A DNA stretch of 22,241 nucleotides. Origin: a virus. The translations under genes were made by a program, and so were the position numbers. The notes under the pieces were generated by a model that was not told the DNA's origin, made no database searches, and saw nothing but the letters and a program-made list of their open reading frames with translations. Below, piece by piece: positions 1 through 21,369 of the stretch. Position 1 is the first letter of the stretch. Every line of letters starts with the position of its first letter. Location: the IMG/VR virus record IMGVR_UViG_3300007960_004291, positions 1 to 22,241 of that record; one strand, 5' to 3'.

Positions 1-116
1 ACGAGCTTCCCGGTGTTCGCTATTTTACAGTGGATAACTTCCCCGGGGACATCCACGTTAATGTTAACGAAATTATCCAACTCAACAACTTTGAGCTTAC
101 TGTGGATATAGTATAA
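1..116 (+). CDS. C-terminal end of an upstream structural protein, possibly baseplate wedge gp6 / baseplate J-like (partial)
   Basis: Only the last 37 or so codons are present, read in the frame starting at base 3 and ending in TAA at 114-116. The visible C-terminus includes VRYFTVDNFPGDI and ends NNFELTVDIV. It has the alternating hydrophobic pattern of a terminal beta-strand pair, which fits the end of a baseplate J-like / T4 gp6-like protein. The main support is position: in P2 the J gene precedes I, in T4 gene 6 precedes gene 7, and the next gene here carries a gpI/gp7-type domain. The stop overlaps the next start (TAATG), suggesting translational coupling. That a coding region ends here is well supported; the identity as gp6/J is inference from context. 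Confidence 0.6.
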   Translation, partial: ELPGVRYFTVDNFPGDIHVNVNEIIQLNNFELTVDIV

Positions 117-3100
117 TGACAATTCAGAAATACAACTACATTGAAACTATAAATCACCTAGTGCCCTCTCTGTACACGGACAGGGAGGCGTTGAATTTTG
201 GTGTAGGGGAAGAGTTAAGTTACAAAACTCTAGCTCATTATTTGAAGCTAGTCGAAAATGCCAGCTCGTTGTTTCAGTCGAGCGCAATAGGTAGTATTTC
301 TGAACTCCAGGCTAAATTTGTCCCGGCAAATAAATTAACACGGGTAACCTCAGATGTGTTCAATGATTATGTTTTAGCTCCTTTAGGCTATGACTGGAAA
401 GATTTTACTGCATCCTCCGAGCTTGTAACGTTCATGGAAGGTAGTGGTCTTAGCGCAACAATATTGAATTCTGATTATAGAACCAACCAAGCTTTCGCTT
501 TATGGTTCTCTGGAGACAACTCAAACGTTCCAGGTGTATCCTCTCTATACCCCGAAGTAAGTACTGTTGGGCTGGCGCATGATACACTTGTTGATAAGTT
601 GGGGCTTCTGCATCTTTTAAACAGTCCGGGTCCCTCTATTACATCTAAACATGCAGACCACGTTGAATTAAGTTCTTTAGCTTCGAGCCTGTGGTCTGAA
701 AACCTATACCAAGGAAAGACTGTTACGGAAAAGGATTGTCTTAATGTTCTTTACGAGTACATTTGGAAAAACAGAGAGTATAACTACCCCAACTTAAATG
801 CCAGCCGGTTTATGCCCGCTGAGTTCGTATCTTCCACCTCTCAAGTCTCAGGGGAGACATATTTGTCTGGAACGCAGTTACTTGATGCGTACAAGACTTC
901 ACTTGGCTTGTGGGTTGACGAGAATATGGATTCCTCACCTATGGTGAGGGATAGTTTAGAGGTTTTCACGTCCTCTACTTTAATTCCTACTAAGTTTGCC
1001 AATAGCGGCTCTCTTAGTAAATTCTTGCGTGCGCTAGGATACGCTACGTATGATATTCATCACGTAGTGGATTCTATCGGGGATTTGGTTGATATCGACA
1101 ACTGCCCTCCGGAGTTCTTGGATTACTTAGCGACTTTAATTGGGTGGAAATTAATCGGCAAGGATGTTACCGAGTGGAGACAGCAGCTAAGAAATGCGGT
1201 AACTGCTTACAAGATGAAAGGCACCACTTCCGGGTTGGATGCCGTCGTGGAGTATATTTTCGACCGTAATGTTTTCTTCCCGACAAGTGGTTTAACGGAG
1301 ACTTGGGAGTCGTACCTCCCTAACATGATTTATTATGTTCTTAAGACAGAATCTTTCATGACGTCCGCCACTCCAGGAGAAGTTAGGACATGGGTTTCTT
1401 TTTGGAGAAATACGGGAAGTGTAAAAATTAACCACGACCCGGACAATATAGACAATACTATTAGGTTTGCGGTTGACATGTTGCTTCAGTACTTGGACAA
1501 CACGCACAAACTTATCCACATTAAAGGTAGGCACTGGAAAGAAAGTGATATGTGGAAAGGGATAATTGACAACCCGAACTCACCGAACGGGTTCGCGCAT
1601 CGTGGAAAGATTGTCGAAGTCCCGCCGTGGGAAAATGATAGGTTTTATTCCGATTCATATATCACCTTGGACGCACTTGAGTCTCTTTCCTCGATTATGG
1701 TTAAATCTCCAGACCATGGTGGGTTAGGGGTTTCCCCTACTGCTTCGGAGTACATTACCAATTTCTGTAAAGATAATTTAGGATTAGACAAACTACCTCC
1801 AATGCCGGGGGACCGCCAACGGTTTAAGTTCCATACCTCTTCTTTGGCGGTGGCACCAAACACGAGTTCCCTGCCTTTACGTAGCAACGCTTTCGAAGAC
1901 GCTACTATTTTAAGCGATTATTGGAATAGGAAGTCTTCTACGATGATATTGGATATCAACGCTGAGGATGCCGACTTCGCGCAGAAAGGCAACACGAAAC
2001 TTAACTTAGAAAACCTTAGAATGCTTCATCAAGTATTCAGGGACTTTGTACCCCTTAGGGTTATGGTCCATTCTGTCATCACGAAAAACATGGCAGACGG
2101 TGGAGGAAGCGAACAGACAAATGATGGTATTTTTGATGGGTATGGTTGGGGTTCAGGAGGATTGCTCCCTTCCGCGACTTTCTGTCTCCAAGGGGATTTC
2201 TCCAAACAAGATGCTGCAACCAACATAGCAAACGATACCTTTACTTCCGGATTTTCTGGTTTGGCGGATGGCGGTGTAAGCGCAGGCACATACCAAGAAG
2301 GTCGATTTGTCCCCGACGTAAACTCAGACTTTTGGGCTGGTGTTGGAGTCGTTCCTAGCAGGAACGCGTCCAGAGCCAGAAACCTAAGATATAGTTTGCC
2401 GGGAAGGTTCTTTTCTAGAAATGGAAGAAACTCACCCCACACGATGGATTTCATGAATACGTATCTTTGGGGGAGTACCACAAACACCGCAGCTTCCGCA
2501 GGCTCTTTTAAAGTTCTTTCCAATGGGGATGGCGTAGGGTACGCTTTTAGTGCGCTAGAAAACTCAGTTTTCCAACCAAAAGGGTGGAACTTCTCCTCAC
2601 AAAGCTACTTCGACACCTCTTCCAGGGAGTTTGATACTTCTAACGCTGTGCGGGCTAACCGTACTGGTCATGCCCGACCAAGATGGATTTCTGCAGAGAC
2701 AGGGCTTCAGGCTTCCGCAGCATTCCCGTTTAGAGCCGCTGAAAGGTACTCCGTAAATTGTAGTGCTGTAGGTGCTGAGGAGAGACACAGGGTATTCGAA
2801 GTAAACCGCCAAATTATAGATATTATCCTCAAGGAGTTCGCTCGTTCAGGTGATAGGGCTGTTCTCAACTTCAATCATGAAGATATGTTGGATAGAAGTT
2901 TTGGAACAGGTGTAAACCAGCTTTACCGTAAATATAAAAATGAATTTATGAATAGGTTGGACGATACTGGGTTCAGTCTTTTATATCACACCTTTGGACC
3001 TTTCCTTATTGGTGGTGATGTTCCTGTAAGAAGCATAGCTATCGACGGAACATTGGACGACTCCCAATCTCACACTCCGGGGCGTGCCCCTGGTGTAGAT

Positions 3101-5023
3101 GATAAGATTTCTACGCGTCCGGAATACAAATATATTATTGGTGGTGACGGAATCCATTCGAACGTATTTTATAATTCAAGCGGTACGAGGCAGTTAGTTG
3201 AAAGTTTTGGTCTAGCTTCAGAGGAAGGTCTTCACGCATGGAAACCTGACTTGGACGAATTCCTAGGAGTTAAACAGTACAGTAATGTGTCATTACTGTC
3301 TGCTATGGAAGTAGTGACTAGTCCGGTTGGGCAATCTTTCGCAGTCCTTAACGATTCATATTCTAAGTTTAGAGTTACGGATGCGGACTCTGATACTATA
3401 TCTTTGTTTAGCCGTGGCGCTCACTCTAAGTATGAGGATTGTTTGAAGTTCAAATTCCCGCTGTTACAGAAGAAGAACTTTATTAGCAACCCGAACTTTA
3501 CGGATAACCCTCCGTCAAGAACAAATCTCCCTCTTTATGCTTTAGAGGTGAAAGGTTGGGATTTAGCTGATTATGCTAGGGACCCAAATTGGAATAATCT
3601 TGGAACAAACGCAGGAACTTTAACAGTTGTTGATGGCTCTCAAGGTCCTTTCTCCCTCTTCCCAGACCTCACCGCCGACGCTAGCGGTAACAATTTCATT
3701 GTTTTAGTAAGTAAAAAGGCTACGGTAGAAATCAGAAACAGAGCCTGTCCGACAATAAGAACAAACATCTCCCCTGTTTACGATACCTCAAGCAGCGATT
3801 TGAAGGGCGTAAGACCAGGAATCGTTCCTGGCAAAACTTATACTTTATCTTTAGACGTCAGGTCTGAAGTATCTGCAGGCATATGGGCTTACCGGCTAAC
3901 AAATGTTACAAAACAAGAGAACTTAACGACTGGAACCATAGCCGCGACAAGTACTACTGCCAGGGAAACGCTCACTGCAGATATTGATATCCCGACCAAT
4001 TATTCTCCTTCCGACGATTATCAGCTGTTTCTGACGTACGCAAATGGAACGAGCACTGCTGCCAAGTGGTCTGTGTTGTATAAGGTTTCTTTAAAGGAAA
4101 AACTCAGTACAGAATCCAACACCTTAATGCCGGACTCCAAATATAGATTTTCTATAAAGGCGAAGGCTGCCGGGGTTGAGCTGGAGAATGTTGATTTTGC
4201 GCAAAAGTTTGCGCTGTTAGGGGTTAGAGTCTGTACCGACATTATTACCGGTTCTGATGGTCGTGAGCAACGTCGAGTGTTTAACTTTAAAACCAGGAAG
4301 TGGGATGTCATGACCCAGTCTAACTACACTAGAGATATGGTAGGCGACCGGAAAATGTTTGGATACAGAACGGACATGTATACTCCGGGGGGACAGTATG
4401 TAATTAAAGACTCTGGAGCTAACTACACAGGTTGGTATCATAGAATGGATGAAAAAGGACATATTAAATTTATGTCCGGACGGCGACACGTCGCAGCTAG
4501 CCAAGATTTAGTCCCCATCTCGGATAACCATTACGTAAGAGAGCCTATGAGGGACGGCGTAATGTTTGCTATCCCAGCAGGTACTAGAGAAGTTCAAAAT
4601 TTAGAGTTTGATTTTGATACTTATGGCGGCTCGGAGATACACAACGAAGATACCGGATACTATATAGAATTTTTCAGGGTACAAGGTCCAAACGCGGAGA
4701 AACTTATTCAGGAAACGCGTATTGACGTACGCCATATTTCAGGGTACGACCTTGAATTAAATGAACTTACGTCGGACAAATTTAATACAGTCGACTATGA
4801 TAGGGAAGATGTTAAAGTTATTATGAGATATTTTAACGATATCATAAGTACTTATAAATTAAATTCTAGGAATGCGAGCGATTCCAATTCTTTGGCTGGC
4901 GCTTCGGGAGGAGGCAGGTCTGAGATGTTAACCCCATTCGGGGGAAGCGCTAGGACTAATGCTGATGATGGAGAAGCCCTCTTCGGAGCCGGAAAAGGGT
5001 CCACTACAGTGTACGAAATATAA
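116..5023 (+). CDS. Giant baseplate wedge protein with a gpI/gp7-type domain and a C-terminal beta-sandwich-like module
   Basis: This 1635-residue protein is probably the wedge component that joins two gp6/J subunits in the baseplate of a contractile tail. Residues about 320-385 carry the phage tail protein I signature: D-I-D-N-C-P-P-E-F-L at 326, LATLIGW, then K-G-T-T at 368 with a following helix. T4 gp7 has about 1030 residues, so this one is some 600 longer. The excess is partly a region at about 1120-1470 that opens with N-P-N-F, includes YTLSLDVRSE and ends near FNFKTRKWD (1389-1397); this looks like a ligand-binding beta-sandwich and recurs in the next gene. The last 50 residues are Gly/Ser/Ala-rich (GASGGGR) and probably flexible. 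The ATG overlaps the upstream stop (TAATG) and has no clear Shine-Dalgarno, so coupled translation is likely. The wedge role is well supported by the domain and order; functions of the extra parts are unknown. Confidence 0.8.
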   Translation: MTIQKYNYIETINHLVPSLYTDREALNFGVGEELSYKTLAHYLKLVENASSLFQSSAIGSISELQAKFVPANKLTRVTSDVFNDYVLAPLGYDWKDFTASSELVTFMEGSGLSATILNSDYRTNQAFALWFSGDNSNVPGVSSLYPEVSTVGLAHDTLVDKLGLLHLLNSPGPSITSKHADHVELSSLASSLWSENLYQGKTVTEKDCLNVLYEYIWKNREYNYPNLNASRFMPAEFVSSTSQVSGETYLSGTQLLDAYKTSLGLWVDENMDSSPMVRDSLEVFTSSTLIPTKFANSGSLSKFLRALGYATYDIHHVVDSIGDLVDIDNCPPEFLDYLATLIGWKLIGKDVTEWRQQLRNAVTAYKMKGTTSGLDAVVEYIFDRNVFFPTSGLTETWESYLPNMIYYVLKTESFMTSATPGEVRTWVSFWRNTGSVKINHDPDNIDNTIRFAVDMLLQYLDNTHKLIHIKGRHWKESDMWKGIIDNPNSPNGFAHRGKIVEVPPWENDRFYSDSYITLDALESLSSIMVKSPDHGGLGVSPTASEYITNFCKDNLGLDKLPPMPGDRQRFKFHTSSLAVAPNTSSLPLRSNAFEDATILSDYWNRKSSTMILDINAEDADFAQKGNTKLNLENLRMLHQVFRDFVPLRVMVHSVITKNMADGGGSEQTNDGIFDGYGWGSGGLLPSATFCLQGDFSKQDAATNIANDTFTSGFSGLADGGVSAGTYQEGRFVPDVNSDFWAGVGVVPSRNASRARNLRYSLPGRFFSRNGRNSPHTMDFMNTYLWGSTTNTAASAGSFKVLSNGDGVGYAFSALENSVFQPKGWNFSSQSYFDTSSREFDTSNAVRANRTGHARPRWISAETGLQASAAFPFRAAERYSVNCSAVGAEERHRVFEVNRQIIDIILKEFARSGDRAVLNFNHEDMLDRSFGTGVNQLYRKYKNEFMNRLDDTGFSLLYHTFGPFLIGGDVPVRSIAIDGTLDDSQSHTPGRAPGVDDKISTRPEYKYIIGGDGIHSNVFYNSSGTRQLVESFGLASEEGLHAWKPDLDEFLGVKQYSNVSLLSAMEVVTSPVGQSFAVLNDSYSKFRVTDADSDTISLFSRGAHSKYEDCLKFKFPLLQKKNFISNPNFTDNPPSRTNLPLYALEVKGWDLADYARDPNWNNLGTNAGTLTVVDGSQGPFSLFPDLTADASGNNFIVLVSKKATVEIRNRACPTIRTNISPVYDTSSSDLKGVRPGIVPGKTYTLSLDVRSEVSAGIWAYRLTNVTKQENLTTGTIAATSTTARETLTADIDIPTNYSPSDDYQLFLTYANGTSTAAKWSVLYKVSLKEKLSTESNTLMPDSKYRFSIKAKAAGVELENVDFAQKFALLGVRVCTDIITGSDGREQRRVFNFKTRKWDVMTQSNYTRDMVGDRKMFGYRTDMYTPGGQYVIKDSGANYTGWYHRMDEKGHIKFMSGRRHVAASQDLVPISDNHYVREPMRDGVMFAIPAGTREVQNLEFDFDTYGGSEIHNEDTGYYIEFFRVQGPNAEKLIQETRIDVRHISGYDLELNELTSDKFNTVDYDREDVKVIMRYFNDIISTYKLNSRNASDSNSLAGASGGGRSEMLTPFGGSARTNADDGEALFGAGKGSTTVYEI

Positions 5024-5030: not shown

Positions 5031-8000
5031 ATGAAAGGAGTTGTAGAAGTTTTTCAAGTTAAGGACGGGTGTTGGAGTAAGACATACGAAGACCACAACT
5101 TGGTAGTTCACGGAGGCAAGGTAGCCTGCGCGGATATTTTCACGCATCTACCTTTAGAGAAGGAAGACGGGACAACGCCTTTAGCAGGGTCCCCTGTACA
5201 GTCAGTCTCCAACTACACTATCCACTCGTTAACCTTAGGCGCTGGCTCCAGAACCTTAAATAAGAGAGATTCCCGACACGCAGTCGTTTACGAAAACGAT
5301 ATCGATGGTGCCGGAACTAAGCAATATTTAGATATCAGCGGTAGTTATTACAGCCTTCTTCCGTACAGGGAGAATTTTAATTTTACTCAGTTCGGTAAAA
5401 GAGGGCTTCAAAAAACATCTGCTAGAAAATCCACTGCAGAAGAATACAAAGGACCTACACTTCGAGATGCTAACCTTGTAAAACATTCAACTATTGAGGT
5501 TTCTAGAAGCAACGAAGATGGGGGTTCCCTGACGTGTACAAAGGTGCGAGGACAGGATTTCGTAGAAGTAATAGTTCCCGTAACTTTGGACCTCGCAACA
5601 AAATACAAGCTAAGTTTAGGTGTAGATGGAAAGTCTCCGGTAAAAGTTGAGCTTCTCCGAAGAGACAGGATATCGAGACGTAATGCTTTAGATGTAGATT
5701 TAAGAGACCATGTGTGGGATTTTACCCAAGCTGATTTTGTTGACGAACAATCCGTCGCAGATAAAAGTAGGCTAAGTAGAACTCTTCACGCCTCCGGGGT
5801 TATCTCAGGCGAACTACATGAGCTTTTTATAACAACGGGGTTTGACAGAATAGACCAAGGTAGTCGTGTCGAGTTGTTTGATTATTTTGTAAAAATAACA
5901 GCACCTCAAGAAACAGATTTTGAGAAAGGTCAAGTCCGTCTTCACAACTTCAAGCTAGAGGCATTAACCGATTATATTGTAACAAACCCTGATTTTAGTA
6001 AGGTTGAATCTTTAGTTGGTAATACTAGCTTCAAAGATTTAACCCCTTACGACCTGCGAGCTTACCCAGAGGGTCAAGGTAGCCCCGAGGACCTTAGGGT
6101 TATGGGTGTTTACCAAATTGGAGGGTTTGAACACTATTCTCCTCTGTACGCATCCGCTAACGCTCTGGACGAAAGTACCCAAACTAGTGCTTTATGGGGA
6201 TGGATTTCCGTAGACAATGTTGATGAATACGGAACCAACGGCAAGCCCCCTAAAGCAGTGGACGGCAACGAAACTAATATCGGGGTCTCTTTCAACTCCT
6301 GTTCACTTATTTTTAATAATTCAGGAACAGCGACTTTGAGTAAAAGATTCAAGTTTCCTAAAAAATGGACCGACTTCTATACCCAGACAGGTTCTAGGTT
6401 TGAACAGGGTTATTTAAATGACCCATACTCCAACAGAAGCCTTGTAATTAAGTTTGATTGTACTCCTGTTTCCTCTGTGAATGATAACGTCGCCGCTGGC
6501 GTAAAGATTCGTTGTACTAACGTAACCAGAGATTTAAAGTATAATTTTGTTTCTGGAGATTTATATGAATCCAAATCGTGGGGGGGAAGCGGAACGGAAC
6601 AGCTGCTAGGTGCTGGGCTGGGCATGGGTACAACCACCACGCTACAGGCAAACATTATGATGCCTCTGGAATTCTATAATGATGAGTTCAAGTTGGACAT
6701 TATTGGTCATGCGGGTGATTCCGAAGGGGACCGTGGAAAGTTAACAATTAGGAATTTAGATATTGGTCAGCTTGAAGGATGGCATATCAATGAAGGGTAT
6801 GCGTCAGGAGTTGTTGTATCTTCTTGTGCTGGAACCCCCGTGTCTGGTGTGCGCATTATAACAGACGTGGGGCAAAATCCTCCGTCTGACTGGTACAACC
6901 TGTCTTCCATAAATAGAAACACGTTCCTGTCCCAGACGATAACTGGGGTAGACCCTAAGAAAATATATAACCTAATAGTTGAAGGTAAGAGCAACACAGG
7001 AAATGGAAAGGTAGGAGTCGCATTAATACACAAAGGCTATTCAAACCCGTACAAGACAAACCATGCCAAGTATCTTACTATAGGAAAATCGTATAACGCG
7101 GGCAACGCTTACCAAAACTATTTTAATCCTGATACGGCTGTCTCCGGTTTCGGGTTTACTATGCCAGGACCTAAAGGACCCCCAAGTGATGAACTATCCG
7201 ACTGGGACTACCAAGAGCATCAAAAATGTGTAAAGTGGCAGCTTCAAAATACGGACTCTCCTTTGTATAAATTTGTAGAGACTGCCACCTCCTCACAAGG
7301 GATATTCAATCAGTATGTAAACTTGCCAAATGGCAGGTATAACTTCTCCATGGATTTGAGGCATTTACAAGATACCTCCAATCCATACACCTACTACTCT
7401 CCAGTTAAGGTGGCGATGAAAATCGCAGCTAACAACCCGTCAGCCGCGGTTCAGTCTTTTTGGTATAATTTCCAAACTAGAAAGTGGGATAATGTCCCCG
7501 ACTCGGATGGGTTTAATAACAAGCCTGAGTACGGAAAAACTATCTTAGGGGGCTCCCACGCGGACACGATGGACCCCGGACGAGACTTCCACAACCTAGC
7601 CAAGTCGACCATCGAAATCGCTGAGCTTAAAGGGGACGCTGAAGGATGGCAGTCCGCTTCAGTAGCCTTTGATATTCGGGAGTCCGATTTTGGAGCTGCC
7701 GCTGCCCGCCAAGAGAACTATCCGGAAGGACACGTCCTCCACCCTGCTTGGAGTACTAGACCAGTAGAGTTTTGGTTCTATGTAGATGAAACCGTTGCGG
7801 TCCCTTCTAACACTTTTGTAAAGGATGGGGTAACCGATGGCGTAGACCCTCTAGGAACTGTATACATTAAAAATGCCAAAATAGACGGTCCTCCAACACC
7901 GAGGGAGCAAATGAACACTTACTTCGTATATGAAGGTGATGGCACCTGGACCGCTACATCGTCTCTCTCTTCGGTAGAAGCACTCAACGATGCCTCAGGA

Positions 8001-9719
8001 CCTATGTCCGGGCATAGACCAATACGTGATGTTAGTGCCGGGGCTTCGACTTGGAACGAGATAGGGTCTGGGTTTGGTTTCACGATTGATTTAGATGACG
8101 AGCAGCATGTTCTCCCTGTTTTCGGGATGGACAGAATCCACAACGAAGCCCTCCCGTATGGAAATCAAACCCTGTTCAATGATACTATAGCTTCTTCTAT
8201 GTACTCGGCGGAGAAGGAGAGTATTTATGAGCTTATGCTTTTCCACCTTAACGGGAGCGATGTTGAAGTACACAACGTCACTTTTGCTGATGCCACAACT
8301 GCGTACTATGACGGTCCTTCGTCGTATGAGAGAAATAAACTAACGTCTGAACCTTTTATTGAGCCTGTTTATCTCGCGAATCCAGGGGGTTGGTCTTTAG
8401 ACTTCAAACACCACTATACCGGAACTGCACGGTCCACAAGACCTGTGAGCGCGGTGATGTATGTTAGCGGAGGACAAGACACTTCTGACTATCTAAAGCT
8501 TACAAAAGTAGGGGCTGTGAACAAAGCAAACTACCACACGACGTATTCGAACTATGTCGATACCGTAGAGAATTTTGGTATGAAAGGTGGTAACCGGTAC
8601 GCGTTCGCGTTCGACTATGCGACCAATAACGGTACGATTTCAGAGGGTGTATTTTTACAGCACGGGGATAGGATTCTCTGGCTTTCTGGTACAGGCAGCA
8701 ACACTCAATGGGTTGAGGCTAACCCTTACAAAGATACAGGGGATATGACCACCGCTGCGTTCAGGAGCCTAGGTACATTCCTTCCGGCAAACTCCGCGAG
8801 CAGAAAACAACTCTCAAGAGACGTTACCACTCCGGAGTTTGTACTTCCTACAAATGTCCCGGAGGATGCGCTTCTAGGGTTAAAAATACGAGAGAGACCC
8901 GATGGCAGTCCCTTCGATTCCTTAAAGAAGAATTTTAGGGCTTACCAAGTTATAGGCGGAGTCCAGGTGAGTTCTGTAATGCCCGACTTCCCCGAGGAGA
9001 AAGATTTCTCCGTACAGCCCTATACAGACGCAAGCACTCCTGGCGAGCTCGGACATTTCCAAAACATGATTGAGTTCTTCCCGTCAGGCACAGACTGGGA
9101 TTACGATGCCAGCACTACTGAACATATTCCAACATATGAAAAAGCGGTAAGTCTGGGAGCGTATTTGCCAGGGAGTGGTATTGTATTTTCTGCCGGAACG
9201 TTCGGGTATAACGGAGCCGAGGCTTCTAAATGGAACGCTAACGTGTCCAGCATATCAGGAACACTTAACCAGTATAGCACCATTACCCCGAAAGGTCACA
9301 TCCTAAGACACCCAACTGCCACTACTGTATTGGATAGTAGTGCGGGCTTAGTTGTGTCTGGACCGTGTCATGAAAGTACGGGAGCTGTTGATGCGTGGGA
9401 CGGTAGAATTGTAAAATATATCCTAACACTAACAAAAGAAGAGGTGGAGTATCTTACTTATTACGGTGGGGGTATAGAATCCGCAGGTCTGTGGACTATA
9501 GATTATACTAACTCTGCCAAAAAACAAGATTATAAGTATGGCGGACCTCCGTTCTTGGTGTCAGGAACTGGCGTACCCTACTCCACAAGTCTATATAACT
9601 TGAAAGACTATGAAGAGCCTGACTGGAGATTATTCGCAAAGAAAGTATTTTTAGCTGGAGGGTTAAAAATGAACGCAGATTCTGAATTTTTGACTATAAT
9701 ATGGAGCTTGAAGTTTTAA
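5031..9719 (+). CDS. Giant baseplate/tail-fibre structural protein built on a split fibre-type fold with repeated beta-sandwich-like modules
   Basis: A 1562-residue virion protein. Its first ~75 residues and last ~25 match the ends of the 206-residue neighbour encoded just downstream. The N-terminus has KGVVEVFQVKDG, then HNLVVHGG (22-29) and a LTLGAG strand-turn (67-72). The C-terminus has DSEFLTIIWSLKF, the variant of the K-T-x-x-F-x-L-x-x-x-W-x-I-x-F ending common in fibre-associated proteins. Between them lie about 1,350 residues of beta-rich sequence in several units. One begins N-P-D-F near 319; another includes YNFSMDLRH and YNFQTRKWD (812-820), matching the wedge protein. Such units resemble carbohydrate-binding or jelly-roll domains, but no specific family is claimed. 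The start at 5031 is supported by alignment with the 206-residue paralogue. There is no upstream Shine-Dalgarno; an AAGGAG lies just inside the coding region instead. Likely role: peripheral baseplate or fibre part. Confidence 0.75.
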   Translation: MKGVVEVFQVKDGCWSKTYEDHNLVVHGGKVACADIFTHLPLEKEDGTTPLAGSPVQSVSNYTIHSLTLGAGSRTLNKRDSRHAVVYENDIDGAGTKQYLDISGSYYSLLPYRENFNFTQFGKRGLQKTSARKSTAEEYKGPTLRDANLVKHSTIEVSRSNEDGGSLTCTKVRGQDFVEVIVPVTLDLATKYKLSLGVDGKSPVKVELLRRDRISRRNALDVDLRDHVWDFTQADFVDEQSVADKSRLSRTLHASGVISGELHELFITTGFDRIDQGSRVELFDYFVKITAPQETDFEKGQVRLHNFKLEALTDYIVTNPDFSKVESLVGNTSFKDLTPYDLRAYPEGQGSPEDLRVMGVYQIGGFEHYSPLYASANALDESTQTSALWGWISVDNVDEYGTNGKPPKAVDGNETNIGVSFNSCSLIFNNSGTATLSKRFKFPKKWTDFYTQTGSRFEQGYLNDPYSNRSLVIKFDCTPVSSVNDNVAAGVKIRCTNVTRDLKYNFVSGDLYESKSWGGSGTEQLLGAGLGMGTTTTLQANIMMPLEFYNDEFKLDIIGHAGDSEGDRGKLTIRNLDIGQLEGWHINEGYASGVVVSSCAGTPVSGVRIITDVGQNPPSDWYNLSSINRNTFLSQTITGVDPKKIYNLIVEGKSNTGNGKVGVALIHKGYSNPYKTNHAKYLTIGKSYNAGNAYQNYFNPDTAVSGFGFTMPGPKGPPSDELSDWDYQEHQKCVKWQLQNTDSPLYKFVETATSSQGIFNQYVNLPNGRYNFSMDLRHLQDTSNPYTYYSPVKVAMKIAANNPSAAVQSFWYNFQTRKWDNVPDSDGFNNKPEYGKTILGGSHADTMDPGRDFHNLAKSTIEIAELKGDAEGWQSASVAFDIRESDFGAAAARQENYPEGHVLHPAWSTRPVEFWFYVDETVAVPSNTFVKDGVTDGVDPLGTVYIKNAKIDGPPTPREQMNTYFVYEGDGTWTATSSLSSVEALNDASGPMSGHRPIRDVSAGASTWNEIGSGFGFTIDLDDEQHVLPVFGMDRIHNEALPYGNQTLFNDTIASSMYSAEKESIYELMLFHLNGSDVEVHNVTFADATTAYYDGPSSYERNKLTSEPFIEPVYLANPGGWSLDFKHHYTGTARSTRPVSAVMYVSGGQDTSDYLKLTKVGAVNKANYHTTYSNYVDTVENFGMKGGNRYAFAFDYATNNGTISEGVFLQHGDRILWLSGTGSNTQWVEANPYKDTGDMTTAAFRSLGTFLPANSASRKQLSRDVTTPEFVLPTNVPEDALLGLKIRERPDGSPFDSLKKNFRAYQVIGGVQVSSVMPDFPEEKDFSVQPYTDASTPGELGHFQNMIEFFPSGTDWDYDASTTEHIPTYEKAVSLGAYLPGSGIVFSAGTFGYNGAEASKWNANVSSISGTLNQYSTITPKGHILRHPTATTVLDSSAGLVVSGPCHESTGAVDAWDGRIVKYILTLTKEEVEYLTYYGGGIESAGLWTIDYTNSAKKQDYKYGGPPFLVSGTGVPYSTSLYNLKDYEEPDWRLFAKKVFLAGGLKMNADSEFLTIIWSLKF

Positions 9720-9720
9720 A

Positions 9721-10341
9721 ATGAGATTTTCCGATTTGAACAGTATTAAAGGACACCTTGAAGTTTATAAGGTGTTTAAGGATGGAACTGAAGAGTTACA
9801 CTACAGCGAGAAAAACGTTATCACTAGTGGCATGGGTGTTACCTTGGCTCACGCTTTCGCTGCAGATGCGGGTTCCGACGTAAGCTCTTTTCAAGCGAAT
9901 TGGATGCAGATTGGCACTGGCGCTTCTACAGTCGCAATTAGGGCAGCTGAGGATGTACAAACTTCATCGCGGGCTGACCTGTTATCTGCCATCCCTGGTT
10001 CTCAGTATGGGGACGTAAACACTATCGGTCTTCACGTGTCTGCGCTTACGTATATGACCTCTGCAGGAACTACTGCGACCAGTAATTTTGTTAAGATTCC
10101 TCCTGCGTTTGTCCACCGGATATCAGACCGCAAAGTAATGTGGCGACTTATTTTAAACGACAGCGCATGTAATATTCCAGATACGGCTAGTGGGGGAGCG
10201 TTGTGCGAGGTGGCTATATTCTCGAATAATCCTCGACAACAAACTCCTCAAGAACTATACATGATTGCATATCGAGCTTTTGCTAATATTGTTAAAACAA
10301 ACGAATTCACCTTGGACTTCAGGTGGACTATTGAATTCTAA
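9721..10341 (+). CDS. Small tail-fibre/baseplate-periphery protein with the classic F-x-L-x-F-x-W-x-I-x-F ending
   Basis: A 206-residue protein with the architecture of small fibre-associated phage proteins. An opening beta-strand (GHLEVYKVFKDG) is followed by NVITSGMG (32-39), a MQIGTGAS strand-turn (62-69), a middle with F-V-K-I-P-P-A-F and W-R-L-I-L-N-D, a G-G-A-L-C-E-V-A-I-F strand, and the ending KTNEFTLDFRWTIEF (192-206). Proteins of this type usually sit at the tip of a baseplate arm or fibre, or connect fibres to it. It is a compact version of the 1562-residue protein just upstream, whose two ends align with its two ends. The gap to the upstream stop is one base; its own stop overlaps the next ATG (TAATG). 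The fold assignment is from motifs; the precise virion position is unknown. Confidence 0.7.
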   Translation: MRFSDLNSIKGHLEVYKVFKDGTEELHYSEKNVITSGMGVTLAHAFAADAGSDVSSFQANWMQIGTGASTVAIRAAEDVQTSSRADLLSAIPGSQYGDVNTIGLHVSALTYMTSAGTTATSNFVKIPPAFVHRISDRKVMWRLILNDSACNIPDTASGGALCEVAIFSNNPRQQTPQELYMIAYRAFANIVKTNEFTLDFRWTIEF

Positions 10342-19783: not shown

Positions 19784-20764
19784 ATGGGTGACAAGTCAAT
19801 CATGCAAATGGCAGACGACATCCTAGGAGGAGCCTTAACGAATACTCCTAAGATGAATGAAGCCAAACAGCAGCGCGCTGAAGAGGAACTTCCTGAAGTT
19901 TCTCCTGAACAGCATGATGTTCTGATGAGTCACATTCTGGGTGAAGGTAAAGCTGCCGATGCTGCTAAGAAAGTAGCTAGAGGAGTAAAGAAAGGAGTAA
20001 AGAAAGTAGGCAAGGTGGTTAAGAGACTTGTTACGCCTTTGACAGATGAGGACGCTGACAAAGCGGGAGTACCTAGAAGAGGTGAGCGCTACCTTGGACC
20101 TCGTAACCCTAAACTACAGAAAGACCATATGGAACACCTATCTAAAGACCAAATCGAAATCCTACAACAAGCTAAAGACATTTTAGGTGAGATGACCGGT
20201 GTAGGCAGTATCGGCGTTAACATGGCTGGAGGCGAGAAGCAAAGCTCTCACCACCCCGCTATGCAAGTTAAGCTGCCTGGAGATAAGGACCAAGCGAAGC
20301 AAATTAAAGCCGCGTCCACTCCTCCTGTATACAAAGCCGAAGCCGCGAAAGGTCCTTCTCAGCCTGCTAACACGAAAAAGCGCGTCATCGTTAAAAGAAA
20401 GTCGGCTCAATCTAAAGACGACGAAACTCAAACGAGAGTACACAACGATATGAGAGCCATGTACCATGAATCTTTCGATTCCTTTGTTGACGGTATACTT
20501 CTAAAGGAAAACGAAAGGAAAGGGTACGCAGGCGACGTTAGCGTTGCTGATTTCGGTAGAAAAGGTCCTGCCAGCGACACGTTCGGTGGTGGAGGTGTTA
20601 AGACCCAAGGCACCGGTCCTAAAATTCAGCTTACTAGCAATCAACTAATGACTGCTAATAAAAAAGCAAAAGCAAAAGGACAAGACAAAGGTGAGAACGC
20701 ATTTGGTAATGCTTCCTCACATTCTCGTAAACACCCCCAAAACCCGTACGCTGGAAGCAAGTGA
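19784..20764 (+). CDS. Head core / scaffold-associated protein with a Lys-rich helix and candidate protease sites (gp68-like by position)
   Basis: A 326-residue protein. Residues 60-81 form a Lys/Arg-rich helix (KKVARGVKKGVKKVGKVVKR) that could bind DNA or the acidic neighbour. The C-terminal half is hydrophilic, rich in Lys, Gly, Ser and Gln, and probably disordered. Four related short motifs recur: DILGG (12-16), HILGE (50-54), DILGE (132-136) and GILLKE (237-242). The ILGE and LKE sites fit the (L/I)-x-E cleavage rule of T4-type prohead proteases, so the protein may be cut into peptides during maturation. The start has an AGGAG at 19771-19775 with good spacing. The stop TGA overlaps the GTG start of the protease gene (GTGA). 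By order it corresponds to T4 gp68 (141 residues), but no sequence homology is claimed. Confidence 0.6.
   Translation: MGDKSIMQMADDILGGALTNTPKMNEAKQQRAEEELPEVSPEQHDVLMSHILGEGKAADAAKKVARGVKKGVKKVGKVVKRLVTPLTDEDADKAGVPRRGERYLGPRNPKLQKDHMEHLSKDQIEILQQAKDILGEMTGVGSIGVNMAGGEKQSSHHPAMQVKLPGDKDQAKQIKAASTPPVYKAEAAKGPSQPANTKKRVIVKRKSAQSKDDETQTRVHNDMRAMYHESFDSFVDGILLKENERKGYAGDVSVADFGRKGPASDTFGGGGVKTQGTGPKIQLTSNQLMTANKKAKAKGQDKGENAFGNASSHSRKHPQNPYAGSK
19982..20005 (+). repeat. Perfect 12-bp tandem duplication (GGAGTAAAGAAA twice)
   Basis: Two identical adjacent 12-base units within the basic-helix part of the 326-residue gene encode GVKK twice (residues 67-74). The identity at every base, including third positions, points to a recent slippage duplication that lengthened a Lys-rich helix in frame. 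Confidence 0.9.
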
Positions 20765-21369
20765 GTAACCTACTAAGAGAATTCAACTCCTTCGGAGAAG
20801 TCCAAATCCTCAATGAAGGCAGAGGCGATAAGCCTATGAAGATTCGTGGGCTGTTTTCTGAGGCTGAGAAAGTAAACGGAAATAAAAGAGTTTACAGTAA
20901 AAAGCTTCTAGAAAGAGAGTGTAACAAGTTAGCTACCATGATTGCTGAGCGCAGATTGGTAGGCGAGCTGGACCACCCGTCTAGTGAAGTTGTTTCTTTA
21001 TCTAACGCTTCCCATCTTATTACTGGGCTAACCTTTGAAGGTAACCAAATTATTGGCGAAGCGGAAGTGCTAAACACTCCCTCCGGTAAAGTTCTACAAG
21101 AACTTCTTAAATCAGGGGTTCAAGTAGGCATCTCTTCCAGAGCAACTGGAAGCCTAGAGCAGGATATGCATGAAGATTGCTATCGTGTTCAAGACAATTT
21201 AAAAATGATTACTTGGGATATGGTATCAGACCCTTCTTGCCAAGGTGCTTTCCCGGCTCTACAAGAGGGGATGCTAAATGAAAAGCGTGACCCGATTGTT
21301 GAGGAGCTAGACCACCACAAGCAAGAAAGAATTTATATCACCGCCCTTAAGAATAGTTTGAGAAAATAA
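20761..21369 (+). CDS. 21: Prohead core maturation protease (T4 gp21 family)
   Basis: A 202-residue serine protease, close to T4 gp21 (212 residues), that cleaves the scaffold, core proteins and capsid protein inside the prohead and then itself. Family landmarks are visible: MKIRGLFSEAEKVNGNKRVY (26-45), the GELDHPSS block with His72, SNASHLITGL with His85, the V-L-N-T-P-S-G-K segment at 103-110, and the serine motif VGISSR with Ser125/Ser126. The H-P and G-x-S-S-R blocks are the usual candidates for the catalytic His and Ser of this herpesvirus-assemblin-like fold. WDMVSDPS (152-159) follows. The start is GTG, overlapping the upstream TGA, with GGAAG just before it; a later ATG (residue 26) would remove little of the core, but the GTG start has the better ribosome site. 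A C-terminal ALQEG fits an autocleavage site. The scaffold and capsid genes follow in T4 order. Confidence 0.92.
   Translation: MSNLLREFNSFGEVQILNEGRGDKPMKIRGLFSEAEKVNGNKRVYSKKLLERECNKLATMIAERRLVGELDHPSSEVVSLSNASHLITGLTFEGNQIIGEAEVLNTPSGKVLQELLKSGVQVGISSRATGSLEQDMHEDCYRVQDNLKMITWDMVSDPSCQGAFPALQEGMLNEKRDPIVEELDHHKQERIYITALKNSLRK

Follow-up and report, generated by a model that had tools for sequence, protein, structure and literature searches.

A predicted baseplate connector fold opened by a large insertion beside its uninterrupted paralogue in a marine-phage contig

Introduction

The first three complete genes of a 22-kb viral contig (IMG/VR record IMGVR_UViG_3300007960_004291; all 22,241 nucleotides were analyzed and are referred to here as the window) encode a 1635-residue protein of the Tail_P2_I family and two proteins of very unequal length, P0001 (1562 residues) and P0002 (206 residues). 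This arrangement raises the question of whether the large protein is a copy of the small one that has been opened by an insertion and, if so, which fold the two share and what such an insertion might do. The analysis presented here indicates, with a probability of about 0.8, that P0002 and the two ends of P0001 are connectors of the T4 gp8/A511 gp105 type, and that the ends of P0001 form a single domain from which the insert is held out. The features discussed are as follows.

116..5023, + strand: Tail_P2_I protein, baseplate wedge gp7 / P2 gpI type (BW3), 1635 aa (Pfam PF09684)
5031..9719, + strand: P0001, F paralogue, predicted gp8-like connector split by a large insert, 1562 aa (short-orthologue HMM)
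5031..5273, + strand: N-terminal part of the split core of P0001, residues 1-81 (HMM 1-76; small-family profile)
5274..9026, + strand: insert of P0001, residues 82-1332 by HMM bounds (absent from short orthologues)
9027..9716, + strand: C-terminal part of the split core of P0001, residues 1333-1562 (HMM 155-339; family profile)
9721..10341, + strand: P0002, S paralogue, uninterrupted predicted gp8/gp105-like connector, 206 aa (AF2 model; PDB fold matches)

Results

Relationship of the two ends of P0001 to the small protein

The open reading frames of P0001 and P0002 are both intact. P0001 and four relatives, 46-66% identical to it, are five distinct sequences that each keep the protein as one frame, so that P0001 is not an assembly artefact. 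P0002 matched phrog_5417, a family of unknown function (E 4.7e-7); searches of PHROG and Pfam with P0001, insert included, yielded no match.

Direct comparison of the pair by blastp aligned residues 1-79 of P0001 with residues 9-74 of P0002 (E 0.003). When an alignment of P0001 and its four relatives was compared with a profile of the small family (95 sequences), residues 1-110 matched with an E-value of 1.2e-7, against a best value of 0.014 for the other 150-residue windows of P0001, the first apart. The C-terminus did not match this profile significantly (E 0.03, within the background). The preliminary description had both ends of the large protein matching the small one; this holds directly for the N-terminus and, for the C-terminus, by way of intermediates.

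These intermediates are encoded in L022 and about 20 other contigs, which carry a protein of 337-422 residues (short F) at the exact position of P0001; in most of these contigs a further paralogue, T (215-272 residues), comes next, and then S, the orthologue of P0002. A hidden Markov model built solely from F orthologues of 425 residues or less matched P0001 twice, at residues 1-81 (HMM 1-76; 21.7 bits, iE 3.7e-7) and at residues 1333-1542 (HMM 155-339; 49.1 bits, iE 1.7e-15), whereas the best score among 644 reversed ORF decoys was 6.4 bits. The insert of about 1,250 residues between the two matches is therefore real. The short-F profile in turn matched the S/T profile over both halves and in the correct order (N-half E 3.6e-10, C-half E 3.3e-4). 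A C-terminal profile of 57 long and short F proteins likewise matched the S/T profile (E 2.2e-5, score 35.1; best score of 60 column shuffles 21.5, all below the real one), with the pairs GLW/GLF, LFAKKxF/LVAYRxF and xWxLxF/xWTIxF in register. Because the short orthologues match both proteins, the C-terminus of P0001 is kin to the small protein as well.

P0001 and P0002 are thus tandem paralogues, as originally proposed, and both ends of P0001 share ancestry with the small protein on either side of a very long insertion. The boundaries put forward at the outset (residues 1-75 and the last ~150) agree with the strands of the fold: residues 1-81 are predicted to form a beta hairpin, a helix and the third strand, and the final strands start at about residue 1412. 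The size first given to the insert, about 1,350 residues, needs adjustment, because relative to the short orthologue it amounts to about 1,250 residues and the conserved C-terminal part to about 230; by eye, the core possibly resumes near residue 1317 (HMM bound 1333).

Size series and insertion site among F orthologues

Proteins of intermediate size, whose presence in related phages had been suggested as a check, do exist. The 69 distinct F orthologues span 337 to 1617 residues, with sizes of 337, 362-422, 532-661, 725, 793, 993, 1089, 1198-1224, 1525 and 1558-1617. Most long F proteins have a common insertion point, at about positions 83 to 117 of the short-F HMM; four break the HMM near position 175 instead. 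The loop after the third strand is a recurrent site of insertion across the relatives. A search of bacterial genome contigs detected no relatives, and P0001 had none among annotated phages. Vibrio phage D69 and Pseudomonas phage Voja-6 have the small protein alone at the F/T/S position. The proteins encoded directly before it (974 residues in D69, 398 in Voja-6) were considered as size intermediates and rejected, as neither, when its sequence was read, carried the ends of the family; both are taken as gp7-type proteins.

At least two groups of F inserts can be distinguished, which show no detectable similarity to each other. The first comprises the inserts of the window clade, of L118-L129 and of L132, the window insert being homologous in part to the latter two; the second comprises most other F inserts together with the C-terminal extensions of some T proteins. 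Self-comparison of the P0001 insert revealed no internal repeats (best self-match E 0.06), so that the earlier suggestion of an accumulation of modules is not borne out as far as internal duplication is concerned. Two F inserts contain RCC1-like beta-propeller repeats (L096:3436-6417 and L090:4702-7971).

In a paralogue tree of S and T, on which F was not placed, S and T form separate deep clades that split before the lineages sampled, and their duplication is therefore old. This depth, and the fact that even the short orthologue exceeds the small protein in length, do not fit a duplication immediately before the insertion, the order of events assumed initially. The tree bears also on the direction of change. 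It may be, though this is less likely than not, that protein and fold are as we propose but that the insert was there first and has been lost from the short orthologues: each of the lineages closest to the paralogue root (L101, L123 and next the window clade) carries one, and the S tree requires five or more transitions in insert presence, whichever the direction. However, the inserts of L050 (661 residues) and L055 (725 residues) sit within groups of insert-free relatives, an arrangement that favours gain in these two, and no homology was detected between the window-type insert and the others.

A split copy and extended copies of the third paralogue

An even cleaner split of one copy of the small fold is seen in the third paralogue, in six other contigs (L083, L084, L096, L099, L104 and L110). 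The T proteins of these contigs (577-622 residues) matched an S/T profile, built without the split T proteins themselves, in two stretches (iE of the parts 1e-13 to 1e-22): the first runs as far as position 105-106, the second starts at position 107-112 and reaches the end, and 366-402 residues separate them. Split T is the S fold opened at the turn that joins its fourth and fifth long strands, the whole core being retained. Since the F insert, after the third strand, precedes the loop that is opened in T, the fold tolerates insertion in two loops.

Other T proteins (742-1083 residues) carry 530-880 residues appended past the C-terminus. Extensions of ~850 residues are found in five T connectors (L093:4738-7989, L094:970-4158, L095:4818-7979, L097:4813-7980 and L109:4795-7998). 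All five contain the canonical sulfatase motif C-x-P-x-R followed by TG, and a sulfatase domain (PF00884) was detected in both of those scanned (L093, E 2e-24; L095, E 2e-29). A fusion of connector and sulfatase would suit marine hosts bearing sulfated polysaccharides. In the extension of another T protein (L103:5341-7983), the signal of an alpha/beta-hydrolase was weak (E 2e-4) and fell short of the Pfam cut-off.

Predicted fold and gene context

An AF2 model of P0002 (41 sequences) had a pLDDT of 85.4 and a pTM of 0.83. In VIA-align comparisons with the PDB, its best match was phiKZ gp139 (9xpg, Z 7.6), followed by A511 gp105 (6hhk, 6.9), another phiKZ baseplate chain (6.8), T4 gp8 (1n7z, 6.3 over 119 residues) and a chain from the KP1 baseplate region (6.0). 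The top five matches (Z 6.0-7.6) are all phage baseplate proteins; the next one, an unrelated protein, scored 4.5. The model of a short F protein (P0012; mean pLDDT 57) is confident in the core alone, which has the same order of strands and helices as the P0002 model. All matches listed for P0012 are baseplate proteins of phiKZ, phi812, A511 and KP1 (Z 3.5-5.8), the best being phiKZ 9xqd (5.8), with A511 gp105 (6hhk) at 4.1; three PDB entries (6hhk, 9xqd and 9f4a) are common to both models, an indirect form of the structural comparison with the small protein that had been proposed as a check. The Z-scores of the two models, 3.5-7.6, are all below 8, derive from predicted structures and lie in the range where chance arrangements occur. 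Foldseek searches of the PDB with both models gave no significant match, and sequence searches of the PDB with the S/T and F profiles yielded no hit, to a solved gp8-like protein or to any other. Sequence similarity to a solved member was not treated as defining, because T4 gp8 and A511 gp105 are themselves grouped by fold (PMC10811340). In BFVD, the P0002 fold also matched predictions for proteins of archaeal lipothrixviruses (B2CRN3, E 7e-7, TM 0.71 by target) and of the haloarchaeal tailed viruses HGTV-1 and HHTV-1.

The genes are ordered gp25 (PF04965), gp6/J (PF04865, phrog_219), gp7/Tail_P2_I (PF09684) and connector family, the first two being seen in relatives, as the window begins at the Tail_P2_I gene. 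This is the order of T4-type baseplates. The connector family is thus encoded with baseplate wedge genes and adjoins a gp7-type protein. The product of 116..5023 matched Tail_P2_I with an E-value of 6.6e-6 (26.5 bits; cutoff 20.6) and is the predicted chain carrying the connectors. A head maturation protease gene with a GTG start (phrog_207, E 1.5e-46; window 20761-21369) lies a few genes downstream of the baseplate genes.

The restriction of the top matches to one kind of protein, the three shared PDB entries and the gene order together argue for the predicted identity of the small protein and the short orthologue as baseplate wedge connectors of the gp8/gp105 type. Contrary to the initial assumption, the fold is probably not that of a fibre; it resembles T4 gp8 and A511 gp105 instead. 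That P0001 might nonetheless be a fibre or tailspike, with an N-terminal attachment domain, a separate C-terminal tip that folds independently and a fibre shaft between them, is improbable. Its length and unmatched middle do resemble long fibre proteins, and phrog_4176 ('tail fiber protein') weakly touches P0002 (E 0.12), but both ends occur within one protein of 200-400 residues, in the same strand order, in short F, S and T, and the two parts of split T meet at the adjacent profile positions 106/107. More improbable still is a gene fusion joining the N-terminal part of one connector to the C-terminal part of a neighbouring paralogue around other sequence, since, although three paralogues stand in tandem in many relatives and the window clade is without the middle one (T), both ends of P0001 match the same orthologue family F and L105/L106 have a 1525-residue F yet still carry T and S.

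Discussion

A proposed split connector at the baseplate periphery

In the T4 wedge, gp8 assembles with gp6 and gp7 (PMC3004832). T4 gp8 and A511 gp105 join receptor-binding proteins to the baseplate, and gp105 of A511 forms three dimers arranged like beads along an extended BW3 chain (PMC10811340). If the marine-phage connectors behave alike, they would sit on the gp7-type wedge protein and link receptor-binding parts to the baseplate. In P0001, the N-terminal ~75 and the C-terminal ~150 residues would still assemble into one connector domain, the loop after the third strand holding about 1,250 extra residues, and this insert would project from that domain at the periphery of the baseplate, where it would most likely be a module facing the host surface. 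By analogy, F, T and S may be beads on the gp7-type protein (on that encoded at 116-5023 in the case of the window), with the F insert hanging toward the host. We infer the assembly of F into the virion, its location and dimerisation there and the role of its insert from this analogy.

More tentatively, the string of three beads may be built from up to three paralogues (F, T and S) rather than from one repeated protein, with two loops and the C-terminus offering interchangeable positions for the display of large modules, whether enzymatic or directed at the host. Somewhat less than even odds attach to this proposal; if it is true, display on paralogous beads would give host-range modules a path that does not run through tail fibres.

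P0001, a large marine-phage protein that lacked annotation and whose small paralogue matches only a PHROG of unknown function, is likely to be a baseplate part. One small fold has been opened in different loops by about 200-1,290 extra residues, with both ends kept. Relatives differ in their cargo, such as beta-propellers and sulfatases, and carry it either in loops or at the end of this fold. Should the inserts face the host, such connectors would be parts that bind receptors or modify the envelope and that escape searches aimed at tail fibres. The size series constitutes a natural experiment on the gain of modules by baseplates.

Comparison with known connectors

The fold match of the small protein to T4 gp8 (1n7z) is to a wedge protein; gp8, however, has 334 residues, no sequence similarity that we could find and no insert of such size, and it is encoded by a single gene, whereas the marine phages have two or three paralogues. 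A511 gp105 (6hhk), the BW3TFN connector, matches both the small protein and the short orthologue in fold, but is about 174 residues long, is one protein used repeatedly and is free of cargo inserts. Gp139 and other periphery proteins of the phiKZ baseplate (9xpg, 9xqd) gave the best matches of both models; they differ in size (265-298 residues) and show no sequence match. The garland proteins gp125 and gp127 of Milano are, like the predicted connectors described here, a paralogous pair with the gp8/gp105 fold and lie beside receptor-binding proteins, but they occupy the distal tips of spikes and fibres and are not described as split (PMC10811340).
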